NCBI GenBank assembly: GCA_004212075.1
Contig: RXIF01000004.1
Coordinates: 1-64,000 of the forward strand
DNA: 64,000 bases
Direction of reading: 5' to 3'
Source: Candidatus Methanoliparum thermophilum
GTDB taxonomy: Archaea; Halobacteriota; Methanoliparia; Methanoliparales; Methanoliparaceae
The position numbers and the translations under genes were made by a program. Positions 4,592 to 24,448 of the stretch are shown here, in pieces. Position 1 is the stretch's first letter. Each line of letters opens with the position of its first letter. The notes beneath the pieces were generated by a model. The model made no database searches and was not told where the DNA came from. It saw only the letters and a list, made by a program, of their open reading frames with translations.

Positions 4592-5491
4592 ATGGAAAAT
4601 ATTTATATTATAGGACATAAAAAACCCGATACGGATGCTATATGTTCTGCAATCGCTTACGCATATTTTAAAGATGAAAACTTTATAGCAGCCAGATGCG
4701 GAGAGATAAATGCTGAAACCCGCTATGTCCTGGAATATTTTGATGTCGATCCTCCTATCTTTATATCCGACGGTAAAGGAAAGAAATTTATCTTGGTCGA
4801 TCATAACGAGTTCTTGCAATCGGTAGATAATATTGATAAGGCAGAGATCTTAGAGGTGATAGATCATCATAAGATAAATTTCTCTTTTTTTTCTCCTATC
4901 TTCTTTCACACCGAACCTGTCGGATCTACTGCAACAATAATCGCAGATAGATATATCAATAGGATGGAGAAAAAGATTGCAGGGATACTTCTCTCATCTA
5001 TCTTATCAGATACGGTTATCCTTACCTCTTCAACTACCACGGAGAAAGATAAAGAAATAGTGAAGAAATTGGCTTCTTTATCAGGAATAGAAGACATTAA
5101 TACATTTGGTATGGATATGAAAAGAAAAAAATCCAGTTTAAAGGATTTAACCGCTTCACAGATCATATTATCCGATTTCAAGGATTTTAATTTCGGTAAG
5201 GGTAAGGTAGGAATCGGGCAGATAGAGGTAGTAGACTTCAAAGAGAGTGAAGATAGAAGGGAAGAATTGATACAGGAGTTGGAGAGACTCAAGGATAAGA
5301 ATAACTATTCTCTCCTGCTTCTTATGGTGACAAACATCGTAGAAAGGGCATCTAAATTATTTGTGGTCGGAGATAAATCAAAGGCAGAGGAAGCATTCAA
5401 GAAACCGGTGAAAAATCATTCTATCTATCTTGATGGAACAATGTCAAGAAAAAAGGATGTAGTTCCGTTTATAGAGCGTGTTTTTAAGTAA
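4592..5491 (+). CDS. ppaC: Family II (Mn-dependent) inorganic pyrophosphatase
   Basis: Soluble pyrophosphatase hydrolysing PPi to phosphate. It shows the DHH-family metal motifs in order: GHKKPDTDA (8-16), VDHNE (69-73), DHHK (91-94) and SD (139-140) in the N-terminal DHH domain, then a DHHA2 domain carrying the RKK-type phosphate-binding stretch (about residues 179-184). The 299-residue length is normal. It begins a new transcription unit after a 166-base gap. Immediately downstream is the dead 3' end of a membrane pyrophosphatase, suggesting that this enzyme took over PPi removal. Confidence 0.93.
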   Translation: MENIYIIGHKKPDTDAICSAIAYAYFKDENFIAARCGEINAETRYVLEYFDVDPPIFISDGKGKKFILVDHNEFLQSVDNIDKAEILEVIDHHKINFSFFSPIFFHTEPVGSTATIIADRYINRMEKKIAGILLSSILSDTVILTSSTTTEKDKEIVKKLASLSGIEDINTFGMDMKRKKSSLKDLTASQIILSDFKDFNFGKGKVGIGQIEVVDFKESEDRREELIQELERLKDKNNYSLLLLMVTNIVERASKLFVVGDKSKAEEAFKKPVKNHSIYLDGTMSRKKDVVPFIERVFK

Positions 5492-5512
5492 AATGGATGA
5501 GAACCGATTTTA

Positions 5513-5998
5513 TGGGACAAAGGTGCGTTTAAAATAGTGGAAGAAGTTAGACGGCAGTTTAGAGAGATTCCAGGAATTATGGAAGGTACGGGTAAACCGG
5601 AGTATGGCATGTGTAAATAAGTTACCTCTGCTTCATTGAAAGAGATGATAATACCCGGACTTATCGCAGTGGTAGTATCGCTAGTTGTAGGTTTAGTATT
5701 AGGTTCTGTTGCACTCGGTGGTCTCTTGATCGGAGTGATCATATCGGGAGTGATGCTTGCCTTGATGATGGCAAACGGTGGTGCAGCTTGGGATAATGCC
5801 AAAAAGATGATAGAAAACGGATATCTTGGAGGAAAAGGGAACGATGCGCATAAAGCAGCCGTTGTAGGGAATACGGTAGGAAATCTTTTTAAAGATACAG
5901 CAGGACCGGCTATTAATCCGCTGATAAAGACTATGAACATGATTGCAATATTGTTTTCAACCTTGTTCTTAGCATGGGGGATTTTGCCACCGATTTAA
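5513..5998 (+). pseudogene. hppA: Remnant of membrane proton/sodium-pumping pyrophosphatase (3' end)
   Basis: The frame from about 5513 reads [18 protein letters not shown] and GTGKPEYG, then an in-frame TAA at 5618-5620, then continues through two membrane spans to the hallmark [24 protein letters not shown] and [12 protein letters not shown] segments and the natural C-terminus. Membrane pyrophosphatases are about 650-750 residues; only the last ~160 remain. The upstream part is gone and the rest holds a nonsense codon, so this is a decayed gene. The downstream piece alone (TTG 5636) is open but cannot form a functional pump. Confidence 0.88.
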
Positions 5999-6073
5999 AA
6001 CATGATATCTATATGCGATAATAAATTTTATTGGGATCTTAATAATGGCAAAATACCTTGAAGGACGGGAACT

Positions 6074-6265
6074 ATGCTCTTAAACTTGATTATAACTATA
6101 TCGATAGCATTGGGTATCTTTTTCATGTTGATGGGAGCAATAGGATTTATCAGATTTCCTGATTTTTATACGAGGTTACATGCTACGGGAAAATGCGATA
6201 CTTTAGGAGAAGCGTTTATCTTCCTTGGGAGCTTTATCAAATTATTCTTGCAAATTTGGACGTAG
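6074..6265 (+). pseudogene. mnhG: Truncated Na+/H+ antiporter subunit MnhG
   Basis: 63 residues with two hydrophobic segments around the family signature GFIRFPDFYTRLHATGKCDTLG. MnhG/MrpG proteins are normally about 100-120 residues and work only inside a multi-subunit Mrp complex; no other mnh gene is in the window. The coding match ends near 6250, where the opposite strand begins to match an unrelated EF-Tu-like gene, so a deletion joined the two. I treat it as a fragment. Confidence 0.7.
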
Positions 6266-6648
6266 CTTATCGTGTCTTCTCACCATGCCAGAAACGATAA
6301 AACCTAGTACCACGGTTCCGATTCCTTTAACATTAAAAAAATGGTCTATCAAAACAGTCCCTTTCGTATTAGTAGTATTTTCATATTTTTCTTGAGCGTA
6401 TCCAATGTCACTACCATCTCGCCGAATAGGTGATCTATATCTTTAACTATAAAAATAACAAAATCACATAAGGATACCGAATAAAAAAGCGATGGAAACT
6501 TCTCAGGATACCTTGTCGGTTCTATCATTGTTACGATACTATCGCCCTGTTTTAAATTATAGAACGTTATATCAGAAGTTGTTCCGATCTTACCTAGGTT
6601 TTTGCTATAACCAATATCCCCAATGACGGCTACTGTTAAATTACTCAT
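6242..6648 (-). pseudogene. Remnant of archaeal EF-Tu/SelB-like GTPase paralogue
   Basis: Reading from ATG 6648, the first ~80 residues match the N-terminus of a divergent archaeal EF-Tu-like family (LTVAVIGD..GTTSDITFYN..IEPTRYPEKF). Near 6375 the frame changes and sequence jumps to the family's domain 2 (KGTVLIDHFFNVKGIGTVVLG, 6364-6302, ending about residue HDKLRP near 6254). The segment between is deleted and everything after domain 2's start is lost at the junction with mnhG. It therefore has an internal deletion, a frame change and a 3' truncation. The domain assignment is from remembered family patterns. Confidence 0.7.
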
Positions 6649-6693
6649 AACTATAGTTCTTTAAATTCAAATTACCTTTATGGTTACATGATG

Positions 6694-6889
6694 TCAGTAG
6701 GTTACTACATTCATAATGGCTTTGGCTGCCCTATCTATCGAAGGGAAAACAGAGATAAAAGCATCTAAAAAGTTTATTCTCTTCGTCTACCTGCTTTTCA
6801 AATTTAGGATCTTCAGCAAGATATTCCAGAAAATCCAACTCGTTCAAGTCACATCCGTTGCCATAACTGACAATCTTGCTGAATCCCAT
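6694..6889 (-). pseudogene. Scrap of ADP-forming acyl-CoA synthetase alpha subunit
   Basis: The minus strand reads [27 protein letters not shown] in one frame (6886-6800), matching the GLNKFVSSGNEADLKMEDYI region of the intact gene at 8480, then in another frame [18 protein letters not shown]-stop (about 6750-6694), which resembles the C-terminus of the same family. The middle of the gene is deleted and the frame shifted. The first part is 21-27 residues long and is quoted here in two pieces. It is a dead relic of a second acyl-CoA synthetase. Confidence 0.65.
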
Positions 6890-6954
6890 TTTTCTTTATC
6901 TTCTAATGGCTCTGAATCTAATTTTTCATCTCCTCTCGCTAAGGCTGAATTTGG

Positions 6955-7060
6955 GTGAGCACCGCAGTGCAAACCGCATACCCGTTTGTTATATGACCCG
7001 AACAAAGTGAAAGCAAGGAAGCCGAAAGTTTCCGTAGGGTCGTGGGCGAGATGTGTTATG
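6955..7060. other. GC-rich hairpin cluster, possible mobile-element end
   Basis: About 100 bases distinctly richer in GC than the surroundings. They contain a nested structure: outer GACCC (6995-6999) with GGGTC (7037-7041), and an inner 6-bp stem at 7017-7033 (GGAAGC/GTTTCC, CGAAA loop). Small stems also occur at 6959-6970 (GCAC/GTGC). No ORF is convincing here. Sets of hairpins like this occur at IS200/IS605 ends and in their guide RNAs, but I see no transposase beside it, so the assignment is open. Confidence 0.4.
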
Positions 7061-7061
7061 C

Positions 7062-7358
7062 TTATTTCAATCCACCTTTACATATCCCTTTACTAATACC
7101 TTCTTTCAATATACAGTTTTCCTCATTACATTTGGCAATATAACCACAGCTAAATAATGCTATCGGGCAATATTTGTCTTTTGCCGGAATGCAGGTATAC
7201 TCAATACCATCCTTACCAAAAGGACAGACATTACATAATTTTTTGTTACACATTCTTGGTACAAAATCAAAGGTAACATCAAATTGTTCTGGATAAAAGC
7301 TATTAACGTCTTTATTCACTTTTAATTGTTCATAAAGGTTTCTCACAATGTCTGGCAT
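7062..7358 (-). CDS. Cys-rich hypothetical protein, likely C-terminal part of the upstream ORF
   Basis: 98 residues with ten cysteines grouped as MCNKKLCNVCPFG, YTCIP, KYCPIALFSCG and KCNEENCIL, a pattern suggesting bound metal (zinc or Fe-S). I do not recognise the family. Its frame stays open upstream of ATG 7358 into the end of the 7388-8230 ORF. A one-base change in the T-run there (TTTTT on the minus strand, about 7402-7406) would fuse the two into one ~390-residue protein. I therefore suspect a frameshifted single gene. Confidence 0.5.
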   Translation of the reverse strand: MPDIVRNLYEQLKVNKDVNSFYPEQFDVTFDFVPRMCNKKLCNVCPFGKDGIEYTCIPAKDKYCPIALFSCGYIAKCNEENCILKEGISKGICKGGLK

Positions 7359-7387
7359 TTTCCATGTTTTTGGGATACTATCTAGAT

Positions 7388-8230
7388 CTATGACATTTGA
7401 AAAATATTATTTCTAAATAATGGACTATTATTCCAAACGTCTCCAGGCAACTCTATTTGATCCATAGGTAGATCATCCCATTTTTTAATCAAATCCGTAG
7501 CATTTTTTGAATCAACTTCCTTTATTGCATTACAAAATATTTGATGATAAACCCCTTTTTTGTAATCTCTAATACAACACCATAATCTTTTCTTTCCTTT
7601 TGTGGAAGTCCCTTTGAATTTCTTGAGTTTTTTCTCAAATTCTTTGCTATCATTTATAATTTTTATAATTTCTTCAGGATTTGCTTTTTTTCCATCAAGT
7701 TGATAGGTTAACAAATGTAATCCACATGCAACTCTTATCAGAAGGTCATCTTTACTTTGGAATCTTCGCATAATGTCAACAATGTAAACTATAATGTTTC
7801 TTTTATATTTTCGATGATTTAGAACCTCTAATGTTTGTAAGATGTTTTGATAATCATCGGTTACATATCGAGATGCGAAGGTAATACCGTTATTGGATTT
7901 AAATCTGAATCGTTTTTTTCCCTTATCATCGTATTCTTCATAATGATTATCAAGTATTTGATTGGGTGGCAATCCATTTCTTTGATATTCATATATTAAT
8001 TCGGAGAAGACATATCCTCCTTTATCCCAGACAATTTCAAATGGCATTTGTCTATCTGTGATATAGCAAATCCAATGGGTAAGGATTTTTTCGCAATTCG
8101 TCAGATCGCTTTTGGAGAAATTTACATAGTTATAATTATCTACTACATTCCATCTTTTATAATCTAGCCAAGAAATTGTTTTGAAGATTTTAATAAGAGC
8201 CGTTTCGTTTTTTATTTTTAATTTTGCCAT
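7388..8230 (-). CDS. Hypothetical protein (ORFan)
   Basis: 280 residues, soluble, basic, no motif I recognise. Features seen: aromatic-rich N-terminus, a Lys-rich stretch around residues 195-215, and an abrupt end in FQMS just before the Cys-rich ORF. It lies in an accessory stretch between an acyl-CoA synthetase scrap and a complete acyl-CoA synthetase, flanked by hairpins on both sides, which suggests insertion. It could belong to a mobile or defence island, but nothing in the sequence proves it. Confidence 0.55.
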   Translation of the reverse strand: MAKLKIKNETALIKIFKTISWLDYKRWNVVDNYNYVNFSKSDLTNCEKILTHWICYITDRQMPFEIVWDKGGYVFSELIYEYQRNGLPPNQILDNHYEEYDDKGKKRFRFKSNNGITFASRYVTDDYQNILQTLEVLNHRKYKRNIIVYIVDIMRRFQSKDDLLIRVACGLHLLTYQLDGKKANPEEIIKIINDSKEFEKKLKKFKGTSTKGKKRLWCCIRDYKKGVYHQIFCNAIKEVDSKNATDLIKKWDDLPMDQIELPGDVWNNSPLFRNNIFQMS

Positions 8231-8479
8231 GTTATTATCTCACCTACGATTTCATATTATGTTGAATTACTATTACATTCAATAGGATTGGAGCAGACCA
8301 AAGGGCATTTAATCCTCTAAAGTCAAGAACCCTGTCTTCGATTTTCATAAAGATAGTTTCAATTCTGTAATTATGGATTCTTAAATGTGTCGGTGCCCGA
8401 TTTAGTTTTTGCACCCAAAATGGGTGTCGCTAACTTTACATCTTACTAAAAAGAGAAATTTATAAATAGAATAAAAACG
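8231..8479. other. Intergenic region with a hairpin
   Basis: No gene seen. It holds a perfect 6-bp stem with a 3-base loop at 8412-8426 (CACCCA/TGGGTG) about 55 bases before the acyl-CoA synthetase start, and a TATA-like tttataaat at 8459-8467. The 8290-8360 part is less AT-rich than normal intergenic DNA here and may be leftover of the neighbouring accessory region. Confidence 0.4.
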
Positions 8480-10003
8480 TTGAAAAAGAGTATGATGACC
8501 GTGTCTTCTAAGATTTTTGATGAACTCGATAAATTATTTTATCCTAAAAGCATAGCACTTTTTGGTGCATCTAACAAGATAAAGATAGGTACCATCTCAT
8601 TATTAACTATTCTTGCAGGAGATTACAAGGGTAAAATATATCCTATACATCCGAGAGATGAGAGTATTTTGGGAATAAAAGCATACCCTAGATTGAAAGA
8701 TCTACCAAAACAGGTAGACCTGGCAATAATCTCCGTGCCTGCAAAGAATGTGCCTTCTGTCATGGAAGACTGCGTGGATAATGGGGTTAGTTCAGCCATT
8801 ATATACTCTTCTAACTTTTCAGAGGTCGGAGAAGAGGGAAGACGTTTAGAAGAAGAGGTCATCAGAATAGCTAGAAAAGGTGGAATACATTTTGTCGGTC
8901 CCAATTGTATGGGTATCGTAAATACTTCTATAAATCTATACGCCTTAATGAATCTTAGTATTCCTCGAAAAGGAGATGTCTCGATGGTCTCACAGAGCGG
9001 AACTTTGGGCACTATAAGCATGATGAATGCATCTTCGCACGGTGTTGGGCTTAATAAATTCGTAAGTAGTGGTAATGAGGCAGATCTCAAGATGGAAGAT
9101 TATATAGAGTATCTTATAGAGGATGAAGATACACGAGTAATAGTCGCATTTATAGAAGGAACACGAAGTGGTAAAAGGTTTATAGATGTTGCAGAGAAAG
9201 CAACGGATAAGAAACCATTTATCGTGTTAAAAGGAGGTACCACAACCGCGGGAAGCAGAGCAGCTCATTCCCATACAGGCAGTATGGCAGGCTCTGATAA
9301 AATTTACGATGCATTTTTTAGACAGAAAGGAGTAATACGAGCAGATGATGAGCAAGATATGGTAAATTTAACAAAAGGTTTTTCGAGATCGATCTTGCCT
9401 CGTGGAAAAAATGTAGCGATATATACAGCTGGTGGTGGGTTTGGAGTTTTAGCATCCGATACTTGTGAAAAAAATGGGTTAAATGTGGCTAAATTATCAA
9501 ATGAGACGATAAAAAAGCTTAATAAGATATTACCTCCTTTTTGGAGCCATGGAAATCCTGTCGATATTACTGCATCGGGTGGTATGAATTTCGATTCTAG
9601 AATTAATATAGAATCGATAGAGATTTTATTAGCTGCTGAAGAGGTAGATTCTGTAATATTCTTAGAGTTTAATTTCGATGGTTACATGAAGAAGGTACTT
9701 GAAGAGATACCAAACGAGGATATAAAGAACGTTATAAGGATGTCATTAGATGCAGGGCTTCTCAATGTAGAATCAGAGACAAAAGAGATTATAGAACTTA
9801 AAGAGAGGTATAATAAGCCGATGATCTGTGTGAACATTTCAGGCAGATATTCCAAAGATGATAAAATATTAGAGGATAGCGGAGTCCCAGTATATTTAAC
9901 AACATCTGATGCAGCTCGTGTATTATCCAAATTGTTATATTATAATGAGTTTATCAATAAAAAAAGACAGGTCGTCGATATAAAGGAAAGAATAACTAAA
10001 TAA
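8480..10003 (+). CDS. ADP-forming acyl-CoA synthetase, alpha subunit
   Basis: Converts an acyl-CoA plus ADP and phosphate to the acid, CoA and ATP (or the reverse), through a phosphohistidine. Visible: CoA-binding Rossmann domain (residues ~20-145, YPKSIALFGAS and VGPNCMG), succinyl-CoA-ligase-like domains, and the catalytic His265 in SHTGSMAG. It ends about residue 507 without an ATP-grasp domain, so it needs a separate beta subunit; a candidate is at 23.7 kb. The open frame starts at TTG 8480 but ATG 8492 or 8495 is equally likely, about 30 bases after a TATA-like box, implying a leaderless message. Substrate (acetate, branched or aryl acid) cannot be read. Confidence 0.88.
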   Translation: MKKSMMTVSSKIFDELDKLFYPKSIALFGASNKIKIGTISLLTILAGDYKGKIYPIHPRDESILGIKAYPRLKDLPKQVDLAIISVPAKNVPSVMEDCVDNGVSSAIIYSSNFSEVGEEGRRLEEEVIRIARKGGIHFVGPNCMGIVNTSINLYALMNLSIPRKGDVSMVSQSGTLGTISMMNASSHGVGLNKFVSSGNEADLKMEDYIEYLIEDEDTRVIVAFIEGTRSGKRFIDVAEKATDKKPFIVLKGGTTTAGSRAAHSHTGSMAGSDKIYDAFFRQKGVIRADDEQDMVNLTKGFSRSILPRGKNVAIYTAGGGFGVLASDTCEKNGLNVAKLSNETIKKLNKILPPFWSHGNPVDITASGGMNFDSRINIESIEILLAAEEVDSVIFLEFNFDGYMKKVLEEIPNEDIKNVIRMSLDAGLLNVESETKEIIELKERYNKPMICVNISGRYSKDDKILEDSGVPVYLTTSDAARVLSKLLYYNEFINKKRQVVDIKERITK

Positions 10004-10105
10004 CCATGTATCGATCTATTGATATAATCCAATAATAAAAAAGGAAAAAGTTAAAAGAAGCTATACGATATAGGAACGATTAAATCTCTCTTACCTTTTT
10101 TCTAA

Positions 10106-10675
10106 TCATTTAAACCATTTATCAGGTATTTCTGTGGGAGAATAGTTCTCTAAATAAGATAATGCATCTTGTGGGTCGGAAGTAATATAATACGTATTTT
10201 TGTACGCTGATTTAGCAAATTTTTCCTTATAGATCTGTTCAAAAAAATCAAACAACCTGTTATAGAACCCTTTCGTATTGAAGAAGATGATAGGTTTGTT
10301 GTGGCGTTTAAGCTGTTTCAGAGTTAGAACCTCAAATATCTCTTCGAGTGTGCCGAAACCTCCTGGAAGAGCAAAAAAAGCGTCTGACATATCTTCCATT
10401 ATTCTCTTTCTCTCATACATATCCTCTGTTACTATCAGTTGATCCGCACTACTGTTTGATATACCTTCGTCTCTTATAAACCATGGTATGACTCCTATAA
10501 CCTTTCCCCCATTTTTCTGGACAGATACGGCAATCTCCCCCATCAAACCAACGTTTGTACCACCATAAACCAGAGTATAACCTTTTTTTCCTATCAGTTC
10601 ACCAAGTTCTCCAGCCGCTTTTAAAAAATCAGAACTTACAGCATCACTCGACGATGCAAAAATACATATATTCAT
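10106..10675 (-). CDS. LOG-family nucleotide phosphoribohydrolase
   Basis: 189-residue Rossmann-fold protein with the LOG signature PGGFGTLEE (104-112) and the companion Arg-Lys around 89-91 (MYERKRIM). Family members release the base from N6-modified adenosine monophosphates or AMP; the archaeal physiological role is unknown. It is the last of a minus-strand series (peptide, radical SAM, cobT, racemase-like, this gene) with 29 bases to its upstream neighbour. Confidence 0.85.
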   Translation of the reverse strand: MNICIFASSSDAVSSDFLKAAGELGELIGKKGYTLVYGGTNVGLMGEIAVSVQKNGGKVIGVIPWFIRDEGISNSSADQLIVTEDMYERKRIMEDMSDAFFALPGGFGTLEEIFEVLTLKQLKRHNKPIIFFNTKGFYNRLFDFFEQIYKEKFAKSAYKNTYYITSDPQDALSYLENYSPTEIPDKWFK

Positions 10676-10704
10676 ATATCATCGCTTGTTAACTAGATCA
10701 AGAT

Positions 10705-11439
10705 CTACATAATACCTTCGTATCTCTTCTTAACAAGGCTTGAATAGACATAGTTTATCATAGTAATAAAATCAAAGACAGGAAGATTTACTGCTTCTTG
10801 AACGGATTGTCCATAGGGAGGTAGGCTACTGCACTCCAATAGAATTATTTTTATCTTAGGTTCATCCTCAACCATCTCTTTGGCTATTCCAACTACTTCG
10901 TCTTCAATCTTTTTTGAATCTAACCATCCACATTCTCTAAGAATTCCATTCCTAAAATTTTCTTTATCTTCTAATCCTTTGATATAGATAGAATCGGTAT
11001 TATAAATACCAACCTCTCTTAATAGATTGTTATCAAGTATCTTTGAATTAGCTGTAATTATTCCAACTTTACTTCCTCCACCGATTATTTTAATCAGAAA
11101 AGGTAGTTGAAGAAGACTGGATAAGAATACAGGGACGTTTAATAATCTTGCCATCTCTTCTTGAAATAAAATCATAAATCCACAATCACCGGTAATAGCT
11201 CTTACCCCTTCTTCTACTAATTCTTTACCAGCTTTAATTACTCGGTTTAAAAGGCTCATATCCTTATTAAATATCTTCTCGACAGTAAGTCCATCTACTT
11301 TTTTAAATCTTACGGGAAAATGATAAGTAGTGGCATTGGCAACATCACCAGGAATAAAGGGTACAAAAGATATATCCAGTAAGAGTATTCCTATAGCCTC
11401 ACCATAACTTGCTTGTCCTTTTTTGGCTTTATACAACAT
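10705..11439 (-). CDS. Asp/Glu/hydantoin racemase-family protein
   Basis: 244 residues with the paired cysteines expected in this superfamily: Cys86 in TGDCGF and Cys203 in LECSSLPPY. Known members are cofactor-independent racemases or decarboxylases using two Cys residues as acid and base; the substrate here is unknown. It begins 12 bases after cobT and so is likely cotranscribed, but no cobalamin step needs a racemase. Start ATG 11439. Confidence 0.72.
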   Translation of the reverse strand: MLYKAKKGQASYGEAIGILLLDISFVPFIPGDVANATTYHFPVRFKKVDGLTVEKIFNKDMSLLNRVIKAGKELVEEGVRAITGDCGFMILFQEEMARLLNVPVFLSSLLQLPFLIKIIGGGSKVGIITANSKILDNNLLREVGIYNTDSIYIKGLEDKENFRNGILRECGWLDSKKIEDEVVGIAKEMVEDEPKIKIILLECSSLPPYGQSVQEAVNLPVFDFITMINYVYSSLVKKRYEGIM

Positions 11440-11450
11440 ACTGCAAAATG

Positions 11451-12509
11451 TTAAATTCTATCCGAGACTCCTGCCTCATCGAACGTCTTCATCTCGTTAA
11501 GTACTCTGCATGATAACTCTATTAAACTCATTGCAAGAACAGCTCCTGTACCTTCTCCTAACCTCATATCAAGATTTAGAATTGGTTTTAATCCGTAATA
11601 GTCTAACATTACTCCATGACCAATTTCTAACGATTTATGAGATGCAATCATAAAATCTTTGATCTTTCGATCTAATTCAATCGCGATCGCCGCAGCAGCT
11701 CCTGATATAAAACCATCGATGACTACCGGCACCCGATGAGATACAGATGCCAATATCACACCTACAATACCTCCAATCTCAAACCCGCCTAATTTAGCCA
11801 ATATATCTATCGGATCTTTAAAAGGTTTGTTTATATTTATTGCTTTATCTATAACATCAATCTTCTTTTTTAGTGAAAGATCGTCTATACCCGAGCCTCT
11901 ACCAGTCGTTAATCTTGGATCACAATTTGATATAACCGAGATGATCGCACTGCTTGGAGTAGTGTTTCCTATCCCCATATCGCCTGTTCCTACTATATCT
12001 ATCTTTTTTCCTGCATACACCTCTTCAAACACTTCTATCCCTGATTCTATTGCCTTAATAGCATCTTTTCTGGTCATAGCAGGTCCTTTTGATATATTCT
12101 TCGTTCCGTATCCTATCTTCTTATCTATTAAGACAGAATAATCCATATTTGATGCGATTCCCATATCTACAACTACTACATCCGTAGATGTATGGCGTGA
12201 AAAGACATTTATTGCAGCATATCCGTTCAGAAAACTATTTACCATCTGGGCAGTAACCTCCTGAGGATATGCAGTTACTCCTTCTTCAACTACACCGTGA
12301 TCCCCCGCCATCACTATGATGGATTTATCCCTTATGTATGGTTGAGGATCTCCAGTTATGCCGGCAACTTGTATAGAGATATCTTCCAGTATACCAAGAC
12401 TTTTTTTCGGTTTTGTAAGCTCGTTTTGTCTTTTTTCTGCAAGTTTCATCGATTTTTTATCTAATTCGATACTCTCTATCTTTTTTAATATAGATTCTAG
12501 TTTTTTCAT
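11451..12509 (-). CDS. cobT: Nicotinate-nucleotide:dimethylbenzimidazole phosphoribosyltransferase family (CobT)
   Basis: Activates the lower-ligand base of cobamides by transferring ribose phosphate from nicotinate mononucleotide. The family blocks are all present: AGDHGVVEEGVTAYP (68-82), VGTGDMGIGNTTPSSA (173-188), TGRGSGIDD, and the LGEGTG segment with the catalytic Glu319. The 352-residue length is normal. Archaeal members may prefer other bases (such as adenine or 5-hydroxybenzimidazole). It is downstream of a radical SAM peptide-modifying enzyme by 60 bases, and upstream of a racemase-like gene. Confidence 0.93.
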   Translation of the reverse strand: MKKLESILKKIESIELDKKSMKLAEKRQNELTKPKKSLGILEDISIQVAGITGDPQPYIRDKSIIVMAGDHGVVEEGVTAYPQEVTAQMVNSFLNGYAAINVFSRHTSTDVVVVDMGIASNMDYSVLIDKKIGYGTKNISKGPAMTRKDAIKAIESGIEVFEEVYAGKKIDIVGTGDMGIGNTTPSSAIISVISNCDPRLTTGRGSGIDDLSLKKKIDVIDKAININKPFKDPIDILAKLGGFEIGGIVGVILASVSHRVPVVIDGFISGAAAAIAIELDRKIKDFMIASHKSLEIGHGVMLDYYGLKPILNLDMRLGEGTGAVLAMSLIELSCRVLNEMKTFDEAGVSDRI

Positions 12510-12569
12510 CGTTTAATCTTTTTTATTTTATATCTTTAATTAAAAATCAAATCTTAAATTATTTTAAAC

Positions 12570-13838
12570 CTATCTAAGATAGTACATCTCCTTTAAAACA
12601 TCCTGTTTTAATACGTACCGTACCTCATCCTGATAAATTACCCTAAACGCATGTTTTATTAACTCTTTATAAAAATCGCAGTAAAAACTTTTCTTGTACA
12701 TACTACCATCTGTAGAATGTATCTCAGAAGGACAAGGTGCACCGCATATATTTCTGATCAGGCATGTATCACAATCATCAATCTTCTCCACAACTCTTTC
12801 TCGTACTTTTTCAAAATTCTGCGATCTACATATATCGTTTATAGAGTTTTGATAGATATTACCGCCAACAAAATCCTCTTTACCTATAAATTCGCTACAA
12901 GGGTACGCACTTCCGTCCGCTGCAATAGCAAAAAACCTTCTAGCAGCACCACAGGGAGATATATCACACAACATAACTCTAGAAGATGGAGCAACGATTC
13001 CAAGCAAGATATTTGCAAAATCTCCTATTACAAACCTATACCCTCCTTTTGTCGATTTTAGAGTAAGGTTTACAGCATCTATATACTCCTTTGCCAGAAT
13101 AATCGGATCAGGACGGAAAGATAGCGCAGATTTTTGTGTTCCTCTCACCGGATTCATCAAGCAGAGGTGAATCTCTTTTTCTATGAGAAAATTAACCATA
13201 CTGGAGAGCTGATGTACATTGTGCTTGGTAACCGTCGTGTTTATATTCAACTGTTTGTATCCGTTAAACCAATCCAAAACATTATTTATCTTTTTAAAAT
13301 GTCCTTTCCCTCTTAGAAAATCGTCTGTCTTTTCATAAGGCGAGTCTAGTGAGATACCAATCTTGACATCATTCTCTTTTATAAATGTTGTATCTTCTTC
13401 GTTCAGTAAAAAGCCGTTGGTCTGAATGCCAAAAAATACATCGTTCTTATAAATCTCGATGATCTTGAATATATCATCTTTCAAGAGTAAAGGCTCTACA
13501 CCATGGAATATGACCGAACCATCGATGTTTTTATCATCATAATATTCAATAAACTTGTTTATGATCGATTCGATATGATTATAACTCATATCTATTCCTC
13601 TCGCCTTTATATCGTTAAAATGGTAACAATATGGACAACTTGCATTACACCTATCGGTAGGATTCAGATATAACAGAATGATATCAGTGTTAAACCGAAG
13701 GTTCTGCATCTCTCGAGTAATATCTTCTCTAACTTTGTTATATAACTCTTCTAATGCAGGATATTCACCTATACCCCAAAAGCATGTATCTGGATCGAGA
13801 TTAAACTCGATATCATCCACTTTAAAAGACTCTAACAT
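12570..13838 (-). CDS. Radical SAM/SPASM peptide-modifying enzyme
   Basis: 422 residues. The radical SAM cluster motif is CNASCPYC (Cys64, 68, 71). A C-terminal SPASM region with cysteines at about 291, 296, 314, 337, 356, 359, 365, 369 and 387 would hold two more Fe-S clusters. SPASM enzymes commonly crosslink or otherwise modify ribosomal peptides, and a 30-codon peptide gene lies 20 bases upstream (13859-13951). Shine-Dalgarno AGGTG precedes ATG 13838. From memory, a radical SAM/peptide pair named CbpB/CbpA was defined beside cobalamin genes; this could be that family, but I cannot confirm it. A heme-d1/PQQ-type role is less likely. Confidence 0.85.
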   Translation of the reverse strand: MLESFKVDDIEFNLDPDTCFWGIGEYPALEELYNKVREDITREMQNLRFNTDIILLYLNPTDRCNASCPYCYHFNDIKARGIDMSYNHIESIINKFIEYYDDKNIDGSVIFHGVEPLLLKDDIFKIIEIYKNDVFFGIQTNGFLLNEEDTTFIKENDVKIGISLDSPYEKTDDFLRGKGHFKKINNVLDWFNGYKQLNINTTVTKHNVHQLSSMVNFLIEKEIHLCLMNPVRGTQKSALSFRPDPIILAKEYIDAVNLTLKSTKGGYRFVIGDFANILLGIVAPSSRVMLCDISPCGAARRFFAIAADGSAYPCSEFIGKEDFVGGNIYQNSINDICRSQNFEKVRERVVEKIDDCDTCLIRNICGAPCPSEIHSTDGSMYKKSFYCDFYKELIKHAFRVIYQDEVRYVLKQDVLKEMYYLR

Positions 13839-13858
13839 ATTAAGTACACCTAAAAAAA

Positions 13859-13951
13859 TTAAAAGGGAGAATCCTCACTCTGTATAACAAAATGAGTCAA
13901 TCCTGCCCCCTTATTGTCGCATTTAAACCTATAACTAATCGTTCCTTCCAT
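13859..13951 (-). CDS. 30-residue candidate RiPP precursor peptide
   Basis: ATG 13951 opens a 30-codon ORF with a single Cys (position 11) in a KCDNKGAGLTH context, ending QSEDSPF. A GGTG-type ribosome site lies about 8 bases upstream (TTTTGGTGAAAAAATAATG), and the stop is 20 bases from the radical SAM/SPASM start, whose own Shine-Dalgarno lies in the gap. A longer in-frame ORF exists (to 14110), but that extension overlaps the divergent gene and its promoter. The Cys plus GAG turn motif is where a thioether or other crosslink would plausibly form. Function inferred from size and neighbour only. Confidence 0.65.
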   Translation of the reverse strand: MEGTISYRFKCDNKGAGLTHFVIQSEDSPF

Positions 13952-14018
13952 TATTTTTTCACCAAAATTAAAGTAATAATGACAATACTTAAATATTTCT
14001 AATTGTATTACATTTGTG

Positions 14019-14936
14019 ATGCAACAGTTAAACTTTAGAGTACCTAAAAAGATGTTGGATCGAATAGATGAGATATCCTCTAAAAATGGTTTATCTAGAT
14101 CTGAGATCATACGATCATCTTTAGTTTTTTATTTGAATTTTTTGGAGAGTTTGGATGATTTTGTAAGCCTGAGAAACCTTAAATTTTTTGAAAAAGAGAT
14201 AAAAATAGACAGAATAAGAGATACATCGATATTGAATCTTAAAGATTTTTATATTCTGATTACATCCACCTCATCAGGTGCAATAGGTCAGAAAGAACGA
14301 GATATCGTAAAGGTAGACGAGACTATGCTTGGAAAGATAATGACGCGATGCATCCTAACAAAAATAATATCGTTAGGTGTAAAACCTGTTGTTTTGATCT
14401 CAAATTTTTCGGTAGAGTATAATCCAACCGGTATTAAGATATTTGACGGAATATTGCAGGAAGGAGAAAAAGTTGGTGTAACAGAGATAATAAAAGGACA
14501 TACAGAGGAGAATTTTAAGACGGATCAGACATCTTTCTCGATAATAGGGATAGGAGTAGCTAAAAAAAAGGAATTAAAGTTTAAATTGAGTAAGCATGGA
14601 GATTTTGTTTTCATGATAGGTGAACCGAAGGTCGGATATGAAGTAATCCAGTCGGATCTAGTGGATATAAAAAAAATAAAACTAATGAGAGAACTTTTTT
14701 ATGTGCATGATATGATACCTGTAGGAAACGAAGGTATCAAAGAGCATATATCGGAATTTACCGGTTTTTTAGGTCATAAAATTGAAATAACGGATAATTT
14801 GGATATTAATATAAATAAATCTGCCGGTCCGTCTACGACCCTTTTAATAACTATAGATAAAAGATATAAGACCGAATTTACCAGCCTATCTAATAAACAT
14901 GGGATAAAGATAAGATATATCGGTAAGATTATATAA
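14019..14936 (+). CDS. Ribbon-helix-helix domain fused to AIR-synthase/ThiL-like domain
   Basis: Residues 1-45 form a CopG/NikR-type ribbon-helix-helix (LNFRVPKKMLDRIDE..GLSRSEIIR). The rest (about 60-305) resembles the AIR synthase superfamily (PurM, ThiL, SelD, HypE), with a SSGAIGQKERD segment where ThiL-like proteins bind nucleotide. An unusual fusion: a DNA-binding domain on a small-molecule kinase-like fold suggests a ligand-sensing repressor. AIR-synthase relatives include alpha-ribazole kinase (CblS) of bacteria, which is relevant given the divergent cobT block, but that is speculation. ATG 14019 (or GTG 14016) lies about 25-30 bases after TTAAATATT, so it is probably leaderless. Confidence 0.7.
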   Translation: MQQLNFRVPKKMLDRIDEISSKNGLSRSEIIRSSLVFYLNFLESLDDFVSLRNLKFFEKEIKIDRIRDTSILNLKDFYILITSTSSGAIGQKERDIVKVDETMLGKIMTRCILTKIISLGVKPVVLISNFSVEYNPTGIKIFDGILQEGEKVGVTEIIKGHTEENFKTDQTSFSIIGIGVAKKKELKFKLSKHGDFVFMIGEPKVGYEVIQSDLVDIKKIKLMRELFYVHDMIPVGNEGIKEHISEFTGFLGHKIEITDNLDININKSAGPSTTLLITIDKRYKTEFTSLSNKHGIKIRYIGKII

Positions 14937-14950
14937 CAATAAAAAGAATT

Positions 14951-16441
14951 ATGATAGATATGTCTTTGATCTTACTGACGTCGGATGAGACTTTGATGAG
15001 CAATCATCACGGAAAAGAGTTTCTTGGTTTTGGAACATCTGTCCCGCATAATGTGATTCCAGATCCGATCTTCAAATTAATATTTTTTAATAGAATTCCA
15101 ACGAAAAAAGGGATACCTATACAGGCACCATACGGTTTGAGAAAGATTGAGGCAAAACTCTTGGACGATGGTTTTAATGTATTGACTGTGGCACCTTTTC
15201 GTTTAAAAAATTACATCCACGATGCAGATGTGCTATGTATTAGTGAAATGGATCCTTTCGGATGGGGTCCCTCCTCCAGCACGTTTTCGAAAGTATTAAA
15301 GACAGGAAAACCATTCGTTGCACTCTATTTTCAAAAGCTTTTGGAGAGTAAAGAGGTAAGAAAGGCAAAAAAGAGAGGGTTAAAGATAATTGTAGGAGGG
15401 CCAGGGGCATGGCAGTTGAAACATAAACCAGAGTTTTTGAGTGATCACGGCATCGATTGTGTAGTGGTGGGTGAAGGAGATATAGTTGTTTCTAAAATAA
15501 TAAAAATGGCTATTAATGGTGGTAAAATCCCACAATTCTACGATGTCCAACCGGAAGAAGTACCATCCGTAGATGAGATACCTGAAATAAAAAATCCCTC
15601 TATTAACGGGCTGATAGAGGTAGGACGCGGTTGTGTCAGGCGATGTAAATTTTGTGAAGTAACAAAAAGACCATTGCGGTGGTATCCGTTAGATAAGATC
15701 GAGAGAGAGATAAAGGCCAACACAACAAAAAATGATAGAGCAGAGAGTATCATACTGCATGCAGAAGATGTTTTACTATACGGATCGAAGAATACTATAC
15801 CTAATCGAGAGAAAGTAACCGATTTGATGAGATTGGCAAAAAGATATACGGACTCGGTAACATGGAGCCATGCATCGATCGCTGCTATAGCTGCAGATCC
15901 TAAACTAATGGAAGAATGTTCTGATATCATAATAGACGATAATCAAAAATGGTGGGGTGCCGAGATAGGATTGGAGAGTGGTAGTCCTAGAATAATGAAA
16001 AAAACAATGGCAGGGAAGGCACATCCTTTTAATATAGACGATTGGCCTGAGATCGTAAAAGATGGCATGGGTATAGCAAACGATAACAAGCTCATACCCG
16101 CCTGTACTTTAATCGTCGGGTTGCCAGGGGAGACGGATGATGATGTCATAAAGACGATAGAGATGGTTGAAGATTTAAGAGATTACAGCTGTATTATTGT
16201 ACCTTTATTTTTCGTACCTTTAGGCCAGCTTACCAAAGAGAACTGGTTTGAATCAGAGATGATAACAGATATTCAGAAAGAACTCCTTATAATATGTCTA
16301 AAGCATGGGATAAAATGGTCTAGAGAGTTTTTAGATAACTATTTTGACCAGAAAAATTTATCTAATAAAATTATGTCCGTATTTATAAAATTTTTTATAA
16401 ATGCTATCGAACGCAAAGCATCAAAAGAGGGGCTTATCTAG
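14951..16441 (+). CDS. B12-binding-type radical SAM protein
   Basis: 496 residues. N-terminal Rossmann-like B12-binding-type domain (about 60-200, with KIIVGGPGAWQ and VVVGEGD), then radical SAM cluster motif GCVRRCKFC (Cys228, 232, 235) and a TIM-barrel region with GAEIGLESGS and LIVGLPGETDDD. Such enzymes catalyse methylations or C-C/C-S bond formation in cofactors, lipids or proteins. Fourteen bases after the RHH-AIRS gene, so likely one operon. The domain lacks the canonical DxHxxG cobalamin-ligand motif, so cobalamin binding may be base-off/His-off or lost. Substrate not predictable. Confidence 0.85.
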   Translation: MIDMSLILLTSDETLMSNHHGKEFLGFGTSVPHNVIPDPIFKLIFFNRIPTKKGIPIQAPYGLRKIEAKLLDDGFNVLTVAPFRLKNYIHDADVLCISEMDPFGWGPSSSTFSKVLKTGKPFVALYFQKLLESKEVRKAKKRGLKIIVGGPGAWQLKHKPEFLSDHGIDCVVVGEGDIVVSKIIKMAINGGKIPQFYDVQPEEVPSVDEIPEIKNPSINGLIEVGRGCVRRCKFCEVTKRPLRWYPLDKIEREIKANTTKNDRAESIILHAEDVLLYGSKNTIPNREKVTDLMRLAKRYTDSVTWSHASIAAIAADPKLMEECSDIIIDDNQKWWGAEIGLESGSPRIMKKTMAGKAHPFNIDDWPEIVKDGMGIANDNKLIPACTLIVGLPGETDDDVIKTIEMVEDLRDYSCIIVPLFFVPLGQLTKENWFESEMITDIQKELLIICLKHGIKWSREFLDNYFDQKNLSNKIMSVFIKFFINAIERKASKEGLI

Positions 16442-16465
16442 ATAAAAACGTAAGGAAGATATGGA

Positions 16466-16639
16466 ATGAAATTTTGTCCCAATTGTGGATCTAAAAACCT
16501 GAATTACAAGCCATGGCTTGGAGAGATATATGAATGTAGAGAATGCGGTTATCAGGGTGTTTTTGTAATAGAAGATGGTGAGATTGCAAAAGATATAGTA
16601 GAGAATTATAAAAATAGCATATCAAAAAAGCCTGAATGA
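16466..16639 (+). CDS. Small zinc-ribbon protein
   Basis: 57 residues beginning MKFCPNCGSKNL with a second CRECGYQG: a CxxC...CxxC zinc ribbon followed by an acidic/lysine helix. Start ATG 16466 with AAGGAAGAT about 8 bases upstream. It follows the B12 radical SAM gene by 24 bases and may be cotranscribed. Similar small ribbons are common in archaea, function unknown. Confidence 0.75.
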   Translation: MKFCPNCGSKNLNYKPWLGEIYECRECGYQGVFVIEDGEIAKDIVENYKNSISKKPE

Positions 16640-16694
16640 ATTGAGAGCAGCAACTCTTTGATTTTAAAACTATAATTATGCAGTTATGAAAATG

Positions 16695-16780
16695 CGCCGG
16701 GGAAGGGATTTGAACCCTTGCATCCCGCATGGGATACCGGCTCTCAAGGCCGGCGCCTTAGTCCGCTCAGCCACCCCGGC
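16695..16780 (-). tRNA. tRNA-Ser (anticodon TGA)
   Basis: Read on the minus strand: acceptor GCCGGGG pairs CCCCGGC, D arm with GGCTGAGCGG, anticodon stem CCGGC/GCCGG around CTTGAGA (anticodon TGA, reads UCA), long variable arm typical of serine tRNAs, T arm GGGTTCAAATCCC. The discriminator is G and CCA is not encoded. No intron. Confidence 0.96.
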
Positions 16781-16922
16781 ATTCGTTATATACATTATGA
16801 AATCTTTTTCTCTATATTACACTTTTGTTTTCTCTTATAAGATTTTGTTCTGTTTATAGATATACAGGTTAAGTTATATTAATAGAAGATATTTTAAAAG
16901 AATACAAAAGGGATGATTTTGT

Positions 16923-17096
16923 ATGATTTATGTGGATAGATACAAATGTGGTTACTGTGGAACATGCGTGGCAGTCTGTCCAGAGGCAGCAATCGATCTT
17001 TTGGAGACGTTTATCGATATAAATGATAATATGTGTAAAGCATGCGATATCTGTGTTAAAATTTGTCCGATAGGAGCGTTGGTAGATGAAGAATAG
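16923..17096 (+). CDS. 2[4Fe-4S] ferredoxin
   Basis: 57 residues with two classic clusters: CGYCGTCVAVCP and CKACDICVKICP. The stop overlaps the start of the geranylgeranyl reductase gene (ATG 17086 within the last codons), so translation is coupled. In archaeal lipid synthesis the FAD-dependent reductase needs a low-potential donor; a ferredoxin encoded directly upstream is the natural candidate. Too short for automated callers that cut at 60 residues. Confidence 0.92.
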   Translation: MIYVDRYKCGYCGTCVAVCPEAAIDLLETFIDINDNMCKACDICVKICPIGALVDEE

Positions 17097-18282
17097 GTAC
17101 GATATCGTAGTTGTTGGTGCAGGACCGGGAGGATCTATGGCTGCCAAAGTTGCAGCAATGGGCGGATTAGACGTCTTACTTGTGGAGAAAAGGCAAGAGA
17201 TAGGTAGTCCAATTCGGTGTGCGGAGGGTGTAAGCAAAAAAGGATTAAAAAAATTTTTACCCCAGATAAAAAAAGAATGGATATCTTGTGAAGTGGAAGG
17301 AGCAAGGATATATTCTCCAGATGGTACAATGGTAGAGATGGCTGAAGAGATGGCTGGTTCAGAGGTTGGTTATGTATTAGAGAGAAAGATCTTTGATAGA
17401 GATTTAGCAACACTCTCGGGAGATGCGGGTGCGGACGTTTATGCCAAGACCAATGTTACGGATCTTGTCTTAAAAGATGGGGTTGTAAAAGGTGTCAAAG
17501 GTAAACATCTGGGCAGATCTTTCGAGGTAGAATGCAATCTTGTCATCGGTGCAGATGGGACGGAATCAAAGATCGGCAGAATGGGGGGTATCGATACTAC
17601 TCTTAAACCGATAGATATAGAAAGTGGAGTAGAATATATAATGACCGATATAGAGGTAAACGATCTCTGCAATTTTTATCTGGGCAACGATATTGCACCG
17701 GGCGGTTATGCTTGGATGTTTCCTAAAGGTGATAATATGGCAAATATAGGTTTAGCTGTCCTTGGCAAATATTTGATTAAAAAAAATGTAAAAAGACCGA
17801 TAGATTATTTAAACAAGTTTGTAAAAGAACATTATAAAGATGGTAAAATTGTCTCTGTTGTGTTTGGTGGTATCCCAGTATCGAGGCCGATTAAGACTAT
17901 AAGTAATGGAATAATGCTGGTAGGAGATGCAGCAAGGTTTACCGATCCTATAACTGGAGGAGGAATATTAAAAGCGATGGAGTCTGGTATTATGGCAGGA
18001 GAGACTGCTATTGATGCAATAGAAGCAGAAGATTTCTCTGAAAATGAGTTAAAAAAGTATGAGGATAAATGGAGACCCACGATAGGTATGAAGAATGAGA
18101 GAAACTATTTGATTAAAGAGTTTTTCATAAATTTGAGCGATGAGAAGCTTAACGATCTTGCTCGATCAATCAACGAGGTAAAGATTAAAGAGATGTCCGT
18201 GACAGGTTTGATCGCCATGTTGATCGAGAAAAACCCAAAAACGCTCGAAAATTTATCTGAGATTTTGTTAAAGTATTTATAG
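17086..18282 (+). CDS. Digeranylgeranylglycerophospholipid reductase (geranylgeranyl reductase family)
   Basis: FAD enzyme saturating the isoprenoid chains of archaeal membrane lipids. Shows the dinucleotide site VVVGAGPGGS (7-16), EKR..GSPIRCAEGV near 50, the second FAD motif GADGTESK, the family GGYAWMFPKG segment and the GDAARFTDPITGGG motif. The 398-residue length is normal. Coupled to the upstream ferredoxin by overlap; nadX follows after 30 bases. Confidence 0.92.
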   Translation: MKNRYDIVVVGAGPGGSMAAKVAAMGGLDVLLVEKRQEIGSPIRCAEGVSKKGLKKFLPQIKKEWISCEVEGARIYSPDGTMVEMAEEMAGSEVGYVLERKIFDRDLATLSGDAGADVYAKTNVTDLVLKDGVVKGVKGKHLGRSFEVECNLVIGADGTESKIGRMGGIDTTLKPIDIESGVEYIMTDIEVNDLCNFYLGNDIAPGGYAWMFPKGDNMANIGLAVLGKYLIKKNVKRPIDYLNKFVKEHYKDGKIVSVVFGGIPVSRPIKTISNGIMLVGDAARFTDPITGGGILKAMESGIMAGETAIDAIEAEDFSENELKKYEDKWRPTIGMKNERNYLIKEFFINLSDEKLNDLARSINEVKIKEMSVTGLIAMLIEKNPKTLENLSEILLKYL

Positions 18283-18312
18283 CAATACGATACAATTTTA
18301 AAAAAATCAGAT

Positions 18313-19068
18313 ATGAAAATAGGAATCGTTGGATACGGGTCGATAGGTAAGACTATAATAGATAACTCAGGTATGTTAGATATCGATGTCGTTGCAGTTT
18401 ACGACAAAGACTATTCTAAATTATCGGATTTTAAAATATCGAATTTTAAAATTTGTAAGACTTTTGATGAGTTTTTAGATCAAGACACCGATCTGATAGT
18501 GGAAGCTGCCTCACAAGATGCGATAAGAGAGTATGGAGTCAAAATATTAAAAATGCACAAAAATCTTGTGATTATGAGTGTTGGTGCATTGATGGATGAA
18601 GATTTGAGAGATAAGTTAATAAAATCGGCACAGGAGAACAACTCTTGTATATATATACCATCGGGAGCGATATTAGGACTTGACAACCTTAAGATATTCC
18701 AGTTTGTCGAAGGGAATATCGAATTAACAACGATAAAAAATCCTAAAAGTCTAGGATTAAAAGATTTTAATGGTAGAAAAACAGTTTTTAAAGGTAAAGC
18801 CAGCAAGGCGGTAAAAGAGTTCCCTTACAATATCAATGTCGCTGCAACACTCTCTCTTGCAACTGGTAAAGATATAGATGTGGAGATTATTGCGGATAGC
18901 AAGGTTACTGAAAATATTCATCAAATAAGGGCAAACGGCGTATTTGGGTCTATAAAAATAGATATAAACAACGTAACTTTTCCAAAAAATCCAAAAACAA
19001 GTTATTTAGCCGCTTTATCTATTTTAGGGATGATTAAATCCATAAAAGAACCTATTAAAATAGGTTGA
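18313..19068 (+). CDS. nadX: L-aspartate dehydrogenase
   Basis: Oxidises aspartate to iminoaspartate, the first step of NAD synthesis in archaea lacking aspartate oxidase. N-terminal Rossmann GIVGYGSIGK (3-12), an EAASQDA block near 60, SGAILGLDN near 116, and the C-terminal KVTENIHQI segment typical of NadX. 251 residues, normal for the family. No nadA or nadC is adjacent in the window. Confidence 0.9.
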   Translation: MKIGIVGYGSIGKTIIDNSGMLDIDVVAVYDKDYSKLSDFKISNFKICKTFDEFLDQDTDLIVEAASQDAIREYGVKILKMHKNLVIMSVGALMDEDLRDKLIKSAQENNSCIYIPSGAILGLDNLKIFQFVEGNIELTTIKNPKSLGLKDFNGRKTVFKGKASKAVKEFPYNINVAATLSLATGKDIDVEIIADSKVTENIHQIRANGVFGSIKIDINNVTFPKNPKTSYLAALSILGMIKSIKEPIKIG

Positions 19069-19096
19069 TAGGCTAAGAATGATAAATCGTTCGAGA

Positions 19097-19738
19097 TTAT
19101 TTTTTTGTATTGAACAAGGATTGCATCTTCGATAGATTATCACGGAACCAGTTGTGAATGTCGTCTAACTTACGTGGTGTTAGATTGAATACTTCTATCT
19201 CTTCAGAAAACGGTATTCGATGATTTTCACCGAAAAAGATGATCCCGATCTCATCCTCGCCAAGAGTCTTATCTATCATCTCTGCAACAAATCTATATCT
19301 CTTGTTACTAGTCTCTATATAAAATTCAGATACTTTTGATCTGACTTCATTGTTTATCAATCCTATAGTCAAGCATCTTTCCCAATCGATACAAGCTTCT
19401 GATATATCTTTATCCTCTGTTTGTATCAATTTTGCACCAGTTATTACGAATTTTTTGATAATATCATAGCTATTCTCATTTATCTCTTTTAACGAACTTA
19501 GTTCGTTCTCTCCTTGCGAATAAAAAAATTCATGATATATCTTATCAACTCCGCCCAGTTTAGCTGTTAACTTCTTTAACTGTTCTCTGACCTCATTCCA
19601 ATACCCTTTCACCAATTCTGTATACTCAATGGGTGCATCTTCCCATGTATGTATTAGAGGGATATAAATAATCTTCCTCCTTCCTTTATACTCGTCAACC
19701 GTTGGTTTTTCTATTCTTATTTCTTCCATCGTATCCAC
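19097..19738 (-). CDS. Conserved-looking hypothetical protein
   Basis: 213 residues, no signal peptide or membrane span. Visible landmarks: IIYIPLIHTWED near the N-terminus, YHEFFYSQGE near 70, and GIIFFGENHRIPF near 170; the last His-containing strand could be catalytic or structural. I do not recognise the family. Convergent with nadX. Confidence 0.6.
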   Translation of the reverse strand: MDTMEEIRIEKPTVDEYKGRRKIIYIPLIHTWEDAPIEYTELVKGYWNEVREQLKKLTAKLGGVDKIYHEFFYSQGENELSSLKEINENSYDIIKKFVITGAKLIQTEDKDISEACIDWERCLTIGLINNEVRSKVSEFYIETSNKRYRFVAEMIDKTLGEDEIGIIFFGENHRIPFSEEIEVFNLTPRKLDDIHNWFRDNLSKMQSLFNTKK

Positions 19739-19901
19739 CTCTATTAAAAAATTTTAATAATAGTGGCTATAAAGTTATTGCTTTTATTAAATAATCTTTG
19801 GTATATTAAAGATCAAGGATTTTCGAAAGTTTATTAACAGGTAGGTCTTAAAGTATATTATATCAAAATATATATAATAACTCGATCCCATTTGAATTTT
19901 A

Positions 19902-20612
19902 ATGATAGATATCAACAGAATACTGACACGTCTGGAAGACCCTATTTTAGATGTACGTTATCTTTTGGATAGAAAATATCCTAAAAAATCAGTTATAACC
20001 TATGTATCCAACCATTACGGTTTAACAAAAGACGATCGAAATATCTTGGCTCGGATTGCATGTAAAAAAGATGTTGCAGACGATCGAAAGAGAAAAGTCG
20101 TTTCTATAGAATCTATATATAATAAAAAATTGTTTATCGACGGATTTAATGTTCTTATTACAGTAGAAAGTTTAATTCTTGGATATCCTGTCTTTCTATG
20201 TGATGATGGAATATTAAAAGATGTAAGATCTTTATTTCATAGATATAAGATGGGACTTATGACTAGAGAAGCACTCTATAAGATAGAGACGATAACATCA
20301 AAGTATAATCCAAAAGAGATTTTAATAATATTCGATTCTCAAATAAGCAAGAGTGGAGAGCTCTCAAAGTTAACAAGAGATATTTTTAATAAAGATAACT
20401 GTTTTGTTTTTATATCTAAAAATACTGATAAAGATATAATAGAAAATAGTAAAAAAGAAATAGTAGCCACAAGCGATGGAATAATTATCGATAACGTAGA
20501 AAAGGTAATAGATATACCTATTTATATTGCCAATGAGTTTAAATATAATTACTACATACCTACAAGGGCTAGATATGGTCGATATAATCAAAGTGAGATT
20601 GGCGTCTGTTAA
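19902..20612 (+). CDS. DUF434 domain protein
   Basis: 236 residues. The N-terminal ~60 residues fit DUF434 (VRYLLDRKYPKKSVITYVSN..LTKDDRNILAR, quoted with a gap), followed by a domain with FIDGFNVLITVES and CDDGILKDV, resembling a nuclease-like PIN fold in arrangement of acidic residues. Function unknown. Probably leaderless: a TATA-like atatatata run lies about 30 bases upstream of ATG 19902. Overlaps the next gene by 38 bases. Confidence 0.75.
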   Translation: MIDINRILTRLEDPILDVRYLLDRKYPKKSVITYVSNHYGLTKDDRNILARIACKKDVADDRKRKVVSIESIYNKKLFIDGFNVLITVESLILGYPVFLCDDGILKDVRSLFHRYKMGLMTREALYKIETITSKYNPKEILIIFDSQISKSGELSKLTRDIFNKDNCFVFISKNTDKDIIENSKKEIVATSDGIIIDNVEKVIDIPIYIANEFKYNYYIPTRARYGRYNQSEIGVC

Positions 20613-22010: not shown

Positions 22011-23301
<1,291 letters not shown>

Positions 23302-23364
23302 CATATTATTACTAGATGGAGAAAAATATATATTACACAAAGTATCTGACTTTAATAGATAAAT

Positions 23365-23658: not shown

Positions 23659-23680
23659 AGATTAAAAAGAGGTGTTAAAA

Positions 23681-24382: not shown

Positions 24383-24448
24383 TAAGACTAAAAATAAGCA
24401 AGGTTTATTGATACTTTATCTCGATACTAACTAGTTTGATCTTTAATT

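Follow-up and report, generated by a model that had tools for sequence, protein, structure and literature searches.

The locus lies within a 64,000-nucleotide stretch of DNA (the window, meaning that whole stretch), where a short gene and the genes following it are read from the minus strand and another gene diverges from them on the plus strand. The following features were assigned:

11451–12509, minus strand: cobT, bacterial-type nicotinate-nucleotide:dimethylbenzimidazole phosphoribosyltransferase (TIGR03160, 434.2 bits; cut-off 319.3)
12570–13838, minus strand: cbpB, radical SAM/SPASM peptide maturase of 422 aa (TIGR04163, PF04055, and PF13186 for SPASM)
13847–13851, minus strand: AGGTG, Shine-Dalgarno-like site upstream of the cbpB ATG (read from the sequence)
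13859–13951, minus strand: cbpA-like precursor peptide gene of 30 codons and a stop (from the translation: Cys11, GAGLTHF core, His20, SPF end)
13959–13963, minus strand: GGTGA, Shine-Dalgarno-like site of the peptide gene, 7 bases ahead of its ATG (read from the sequence)
14016–14936, plus strand: divergent gene with an N-terminal ribbon-helix-helix (PF01402) and an AIR-synthase-like domain (PF00586, matched weakly in homologues); below, the RHH-AIR gene

The peptide MEGTISYRFKCDNKGAGLTHFVIQSEDSPF is the translation of positions 13951–13862 on the minus strand, and its Cys is residue 11. The TAA stop occupies 13859–13861, and 20 bases separate the peptide gene from the radical SAM gene, which starts at 13838. 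A first-pass annotation of the same DNA had described exactly this arrangement (a 30-codon gene with Cys11 and its own ribosome site, separated by 20 bases from the SPASM radical SAM gene that follows), and it was confirmed. An 83-residue longer frame contains the peptide and overlaps the divergent neighbour gene; the family match is confined to its last 30 residues. The GGTGA site is also present in a relative from the genus of the window organism (L032), and the peptide genes of the two differ silently at five codons and by five residue-changing differences, none of them at invariant core positions.

The enzyme was compared with curated models, as the first-pass annotation had advised, and scored 460.9 bits against the NCBIfam CbpB model TIGR04163 (curated cut-off 375); all seven further archaeal and bacterial CbpBs tested also scored with this model. 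The radical SAM CxxxCxxC motif is formed by Cys64, Cys68, and Cys71, and the canonical seven SPASM cysteines are residues 296, 314, 356, 359, 365, 369, and 387, spaced as C296-x12-G-x4-C314 and C356-x2-C359-x5-C365-x3-C369-x17-C387. An eighth, Cys291, lies in the motif CDISPCG. The three radical SAM cysteines, the seven SPASM cysteines, and Cys291 were invariant in an alignment of 42 diverse sequences. The AlphaFold2 model had a pLDDT of 92.5, with residues 292–295, adjoining Cys291, as the sole poor stretch. The nearest solved folds in Foldseek were CteB, anSME, TigE, and ChlB, all of which are SPASM enzymes modifying peptides or proteins.

The peptide itself scored 23.8 bits (E 2.3e-5) with the CbpA model TIGR04164, below the cut-off of 35, so the NCBI pipeline would not call it, in line with the earlier expectation that it escapes annotation. 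Its conservation was assessed in a scan of 84,980 species, which yielded 80 CbpB loci (26 archaeal, 54 bacterial). The pattern C-x(2-8)-G-x(0-2)-[LM]-[ST]-H-[YFW], sought up to 600 bp upstream of CbpB, was found in 74 of the 80 loci, archaeal and bacterial alike, and only once elsewhere in 1.05 Mb searched on both strands; four of the six loci missing it begin about 400 bp or less from the end of a contig. The peptide is real, since a matching one recurs in this position. Nine other CbpB loci of the window phylum all had a matching upstream peptide, including one with a broken frame. Conservation upstream of orthologous radical SAM genes, on which the first-pass annotation had staked its proposal of a peptide and SPASM maturation pair, was thus found, and the proposal is supported, with the modification itself predicted. 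In the frame-broken locus (L010, genome G022), the frame is lost after GGLTHFV and the CbpB has neither Cys359 nor an N-terminus; this copy is apparently decayed.

The family core is C-x(4-6)-G-L-[ST]-H-[FY]. Its C, G, L, [ST], H, and [FY] positions were invariant across the 80 peptides compared, 63 of them had a five-residue spacer from Cys to G-L, and the core was near-invariant between phyla. The peptides fall into types: GAGL in Methanoliparia, Hydrothermarchaeota, and Bathyarchaeota; GGGL in Archaeoglobi; NGGL in ANME-1; and xNGL, with a Lys-rich variable leader, in bacteria. Peptide type tracks the CbpB tree (7 changes vs 21.6 in shuffles). The TIGR04164 cut-off was reached by two of ten other CbpA-like peptides beside CbpB, and the model looks too narrow because the remaining eight missed it; in its present form it misses most precursors. 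Among peptides checked individually against the model (L007, L034, L044, L005, L002, L072, and L088), only a small part was recognised, and the bacterial KCAKTANGLTHFVMYGD peptides fell far below the cut-off or gave no score.

The window enzyme is above its curated cut-off and the short peptide upstream has the GL[ST]H[FY] core and a single Cys, so by sequence the pair is placed as a divergent (GAGL) variant of the named CbpA/CbpB kind. The window peptide differs from the GGL type of a Ferroglobus-like genome (L011, 53.6 bits) in having one residue more, and the local set adds cobT and the divergent RHH-AIR gene. Both parts already have NCBI names, so the system is not of a new kind; what the analysis adds is a set of peptide types that the present model leaves out (GAGL and others), carriers with salvage only, and the divergent RHH-AIR arrangement. 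The NCBIfam names (cobo_pep, rSAM_cobopep) suggest that the curators may already have seen a link to cobalt or cobamides. No paper naming TIGR04163 or TIGR04164 was found in a literature search, and nothing on the family came up under CbpA/CbpB, under SPASM enzymes in cobalamin biosynthesis, or under radical SAM enzymes and corrinoids.

Neighbouring genes were named by eye from cluster representatives, save those backed by HMM searches. Cobamide or corrinoid genes surrounded CbpAB in 58 of the 80 loci (51/54 bacterial, 7/26 archaeal); the other 19 archaeal loci had no cobamide gene near. The order was cbiB-cobD-cbiA-cbiX-cbiMNQO-CbpAB-cbiD-cbiET-cbiL in Thermodesulfovibrionia and cobCUTS-cobD-cbiP-cbiB-CbpAB-cbiA in Omnitrophota. 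Cobalamin riboswitches lay upstream of same-strand clusters holding CbpAB in four loci (L060, L062, L075, and L111); in the window, an Rfam search of positions 5000–25000 returned two tRNAs only and no cobalamin riboswitch. The bacterial company bears out the link to cobamide metabolism drawn in the first-pass annotation, as does the co-occurrence with CobS described below.

A small precursor next to a SPASM enzyme is a common layout of antimicrobial RiPPs, and by that layout the peptide could be a secreted, bacteriocin-like product merely located in cobamide clusters. This is extremely unlikely: across the 80 loci no exporter, immunity gene, protease, or other tailoring enzyme recurs, the core does not diversify between phyla, and the clusters are riboswitch-led. 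As no exporter, protease, or signal sequence accompanies CbpA, its product is expected to stay in the cell.

Two side observations were made in these clusters. In the cobamide operons of L052, L087, L091, L094, L097, L100, and L109, a second CbiL-like methylase gene occupies the place of cbiD, and genome-wide searches of L052 and L100 gave no CbiD match; the second methylase may stand in for CbiD. A PF01902 Dph6-like ATP pyrophosphatase gene adjoined btuF or cobS in clusters for corrinoid salvage (L177, L180, L184, L190, L075, and L092), with or without CbpAB. Its position after cbpB in several salvage clusters prompted its consideration as a tailoring partner of CbpA (a Dph6-like amidase). 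This was rejected: the gene also stands beside cobS in many CbpB-negative Omnitrophota and therefore belongs to salvage clusters generally.

The window host is presumably an oil- and alkane-associated archaeon of the Methanoliparia, a group described in PMC6703427. By tblastn, its genome holds homologues of CbiA, B, D, E, F, G, H, L, T, P, and X, as well as of CobD, CobS, CobT, CobO, CbiMQO, and BtuFC; CobU and CobC were not found in the same search. The anaerobic cobamide pathway is accordingly nearly full as judged from homologues. Also in the window, positions 14951–16441 (plus strand) encode a B12-binding-type radical SAM protein (TIGR04013 score 93 bits, far below the cut-off of 251), and positions 8480–10003 (plus strand) an acetate-CoA ligase alpha-type protein, of which the genome has at least six paralogues.

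Downstream of cobT come genes for an Asp/Glu racemase-like protein (PRK07475 type) and a LOG-type protein (TIGR00730), the order given in the first-pass annotation; the racemase-like protein, there called two-Cys, has three (Cys86, Cys170, and Cys203). Their inclusion in the set is not supported, as the racemase gene is found beside cobT in the same genus only and the LOG gene in no other CbpB locus. The RHH-AIR gene occupies the same position divergent to CbpA-CbpB-CobT in Methanoliparia and ANME-1, an arrangement common to the two, and stands beside cbiMNQO in ANME-1 L074 (3846–4775). It is a probable regulator of the divergon and a candidate for a cobalt- or cobamide-responsive one. We know of no earlier description of this fusion architecture, and a search of the divergent promoter for operator palindromes gave nothing convincing.

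The first-pass annotation had tied the peptide to lower-ligand metabolism. A peptide specific to lower-ligand synthesis or activation, with CobT as its partner, would account for the cbpA-cbpB-cobT order in Methanoliparia and ANME-1 (cobT also directly follows cbpB in Methanolliviera L033 and ANME-1 L045, L049, L056, and L059) and for bacterial-type CobT in 35 of 41 CbpB genomes. However, Archaeoglobi with CbpAB gave only weak matches to bacterial-type CobT, 20 of 60 genomes of the window phylum had bacterial CobT above the cut-off, mostly without CbpB, and other cob genes adjoin CbpAB in most bacterial loci. A strict link of CbpB to bacterial-type CobT was tested in the window phylum and was weak. 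We consider this reading very unlikely, and the lower-ligand claim was not established. Outside Methanoliparia and ANME-1, the neighbours are CbiO/CbiD, CbiB/CbiA, CobU/CobT, CobT/CobS, or BtuFCD. No single cobamide gene is a constant neighbour, and therefore no single step is singled out.

The DISCRIMINATING test was prompted by the resemblance of several CbpB loci to salvage loci. In the first sampled set, six genomes had CbpB, neither CbiD nor CbiC, and one or two TP-methylases only. Most genomes are draft MAGs, so that ring genes missing from any one of them are weak evidence, and related genomes are not independent. Among 190 Omnitrophota genomes, CbpB was found in 20, CbiD in 9, and CobS in 67. 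CobS was present in all 20 CbpB-positive genomes vs 47 of the 170 CbpB-negative ones (Fisher p = 1e-10, a value whose strength is limited both by relatedness and by the draft state of genomes), and lay at most 6 kb from CbpB in 16 of the 20. CbiD was present in 7 of the 20 carriers. Across phyla, CobS was detected in 39 of 41 CbpB carriers. Because CobS accompanied CbpB in all 20 Omnitrophota carriers while 13 had no CbiD, CbpAB tracks nucleotide-loop assembly and salvage, with no need for ring synthesis or cobalt insertion. Nor is it essential to nucleotide-loop assembly, since many genomes with CobS, such as those 47, do without it. These results narrow CbpAB function to post-ring steps.

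The same survey bears on whether the modified peptide is a metallochaperone that receives Co(II) from the importer CbiMNQO and delivers it to the chelatase CbiX. Such a role would suit the invariant Cys and His, the Thermodesulfovibrionia loci, where cbiMNQO and cbiD flank CbpAB and cbiX lies upstream, and the RHH-AIR gene beside cbiMNQO in ANME-1 L074. Yet the 13 Omnitrophota carriers without CbiD, and the six first-set genomes without CbiC and CbiD, are not expected to insert cobalt, and most such ring-less carriers keep CbpAB in salvage clusters, which makes a cobalt chaperone quite unlikely. Another possibility is a redox or structural cofactor of one late enzyme, for example one that reduces the Co(II) corrinoid on which the adenosyltransferase CobO acts. 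Peptide-derived redox cofactors have precedents in PQQ and mycofactocin, and cobO is the next gene after cbpB in some eight bacterial loci and is also present in several salvage clusters. We hold this to be unlikely too, given the lack of a constant neighbour and of any recurring peptidase or other tailoring enzyme.

The reading that we prefer, at a probability of roughly 0.65, is that a radical-modified intracellular peptide serves post-ring corrinoid handling. CbpB would bind the 30-residue CbpA and introduce a radical modification in which the G-L-[ST]-H-[FY] core and the invariant Cys11 take part. The chemistry is a matter of reasonable guesswork; judged by CteB and PapB, a thioether cross-link is the likeliest. 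The modified CbpA would remain in the cell and serve cobamide metabolism once the corrin ring exists, in corrinoid salvage, adenosylation, or nucleotide-loop assembly, possibly as a small corrinoid-handling ligand. Its invariant His and modified Cys might bind or shield the cobalt while a corrinoid is incomplete and still awaits its lower ligand; such direct ligation is the mechanism that we favour, doubtful as it is taken by itself. The gene pair, its conservation, its gene company, and its co-occurrence with CobS where ring synthesis is lacking are observations, from which we infer the modification, its chemistry, the molecular role, and the precise step.

The assembly of cobamides is seen as a solved pathway in which enzymes act on small molecules. 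With slightly less than even confidence, we suggest that a radically modified ribosomal peptide, distributed from archaea to several bacterial phyla, helps cobamide salvage or late assembly by acting directly on corrinoids. If this is true, a so far unrecognised housekeeping RiPP operates inside vitamin B12 metabolism, a peptide-derived part is added to cobamide assembly, and a named but unstudied NCBI family is explained. The question is testable in salvage-only bacteria and in cultivated Archaeoglobi.

Among known systems, the SCIFF maturase CteB (5wgg/5why), which forms thioethers, has the solved fold closest to the CbpB model (Foldseek E 5e-20, TM 0.71) and is likewise a SPASM enzyme acting on Cys of a small peptide, although the two share 20% identity. 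SCIFF precursors carry six Cys, whereas the window peptide has a single one; the CbpB model has a short beta-hairpin and helix N-terminus and the extra invariant Cys291, and the window enzyme scored 82.5 bits with the SCIFF maturase model TIGR03974, missing its cut-off of 425. The ranthipeptide maturase PapB (NF047865) was the second-best NCBIfam match at 136.9 bits, far below the cut-off of 340; SPASM Cys-linking chemistry is possible in both, but the repeated CX3D pattern of PapA is absent from the window peptide. The closest PDB sequence match was anSMEcpe (4k37, E 5e-20), and two auxiliary clusters are expected in both enzymes; however, the window enzyme reached 111 bits with the anaerobic sulfatase maturase model TIGR03942, whose cut-off is 349, and the window locus has no sulfatase target. 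CbpAB differs from the PQQ and mycofactocin systems in having no protease, no separate RRE chaperone, and no known product. If the preferred reading is right, it would nevertheless resemble them in outline, as an analogy rather than by membership: a conserved peptide would be turned into a housekeeping factor by a SPASM enzyme.
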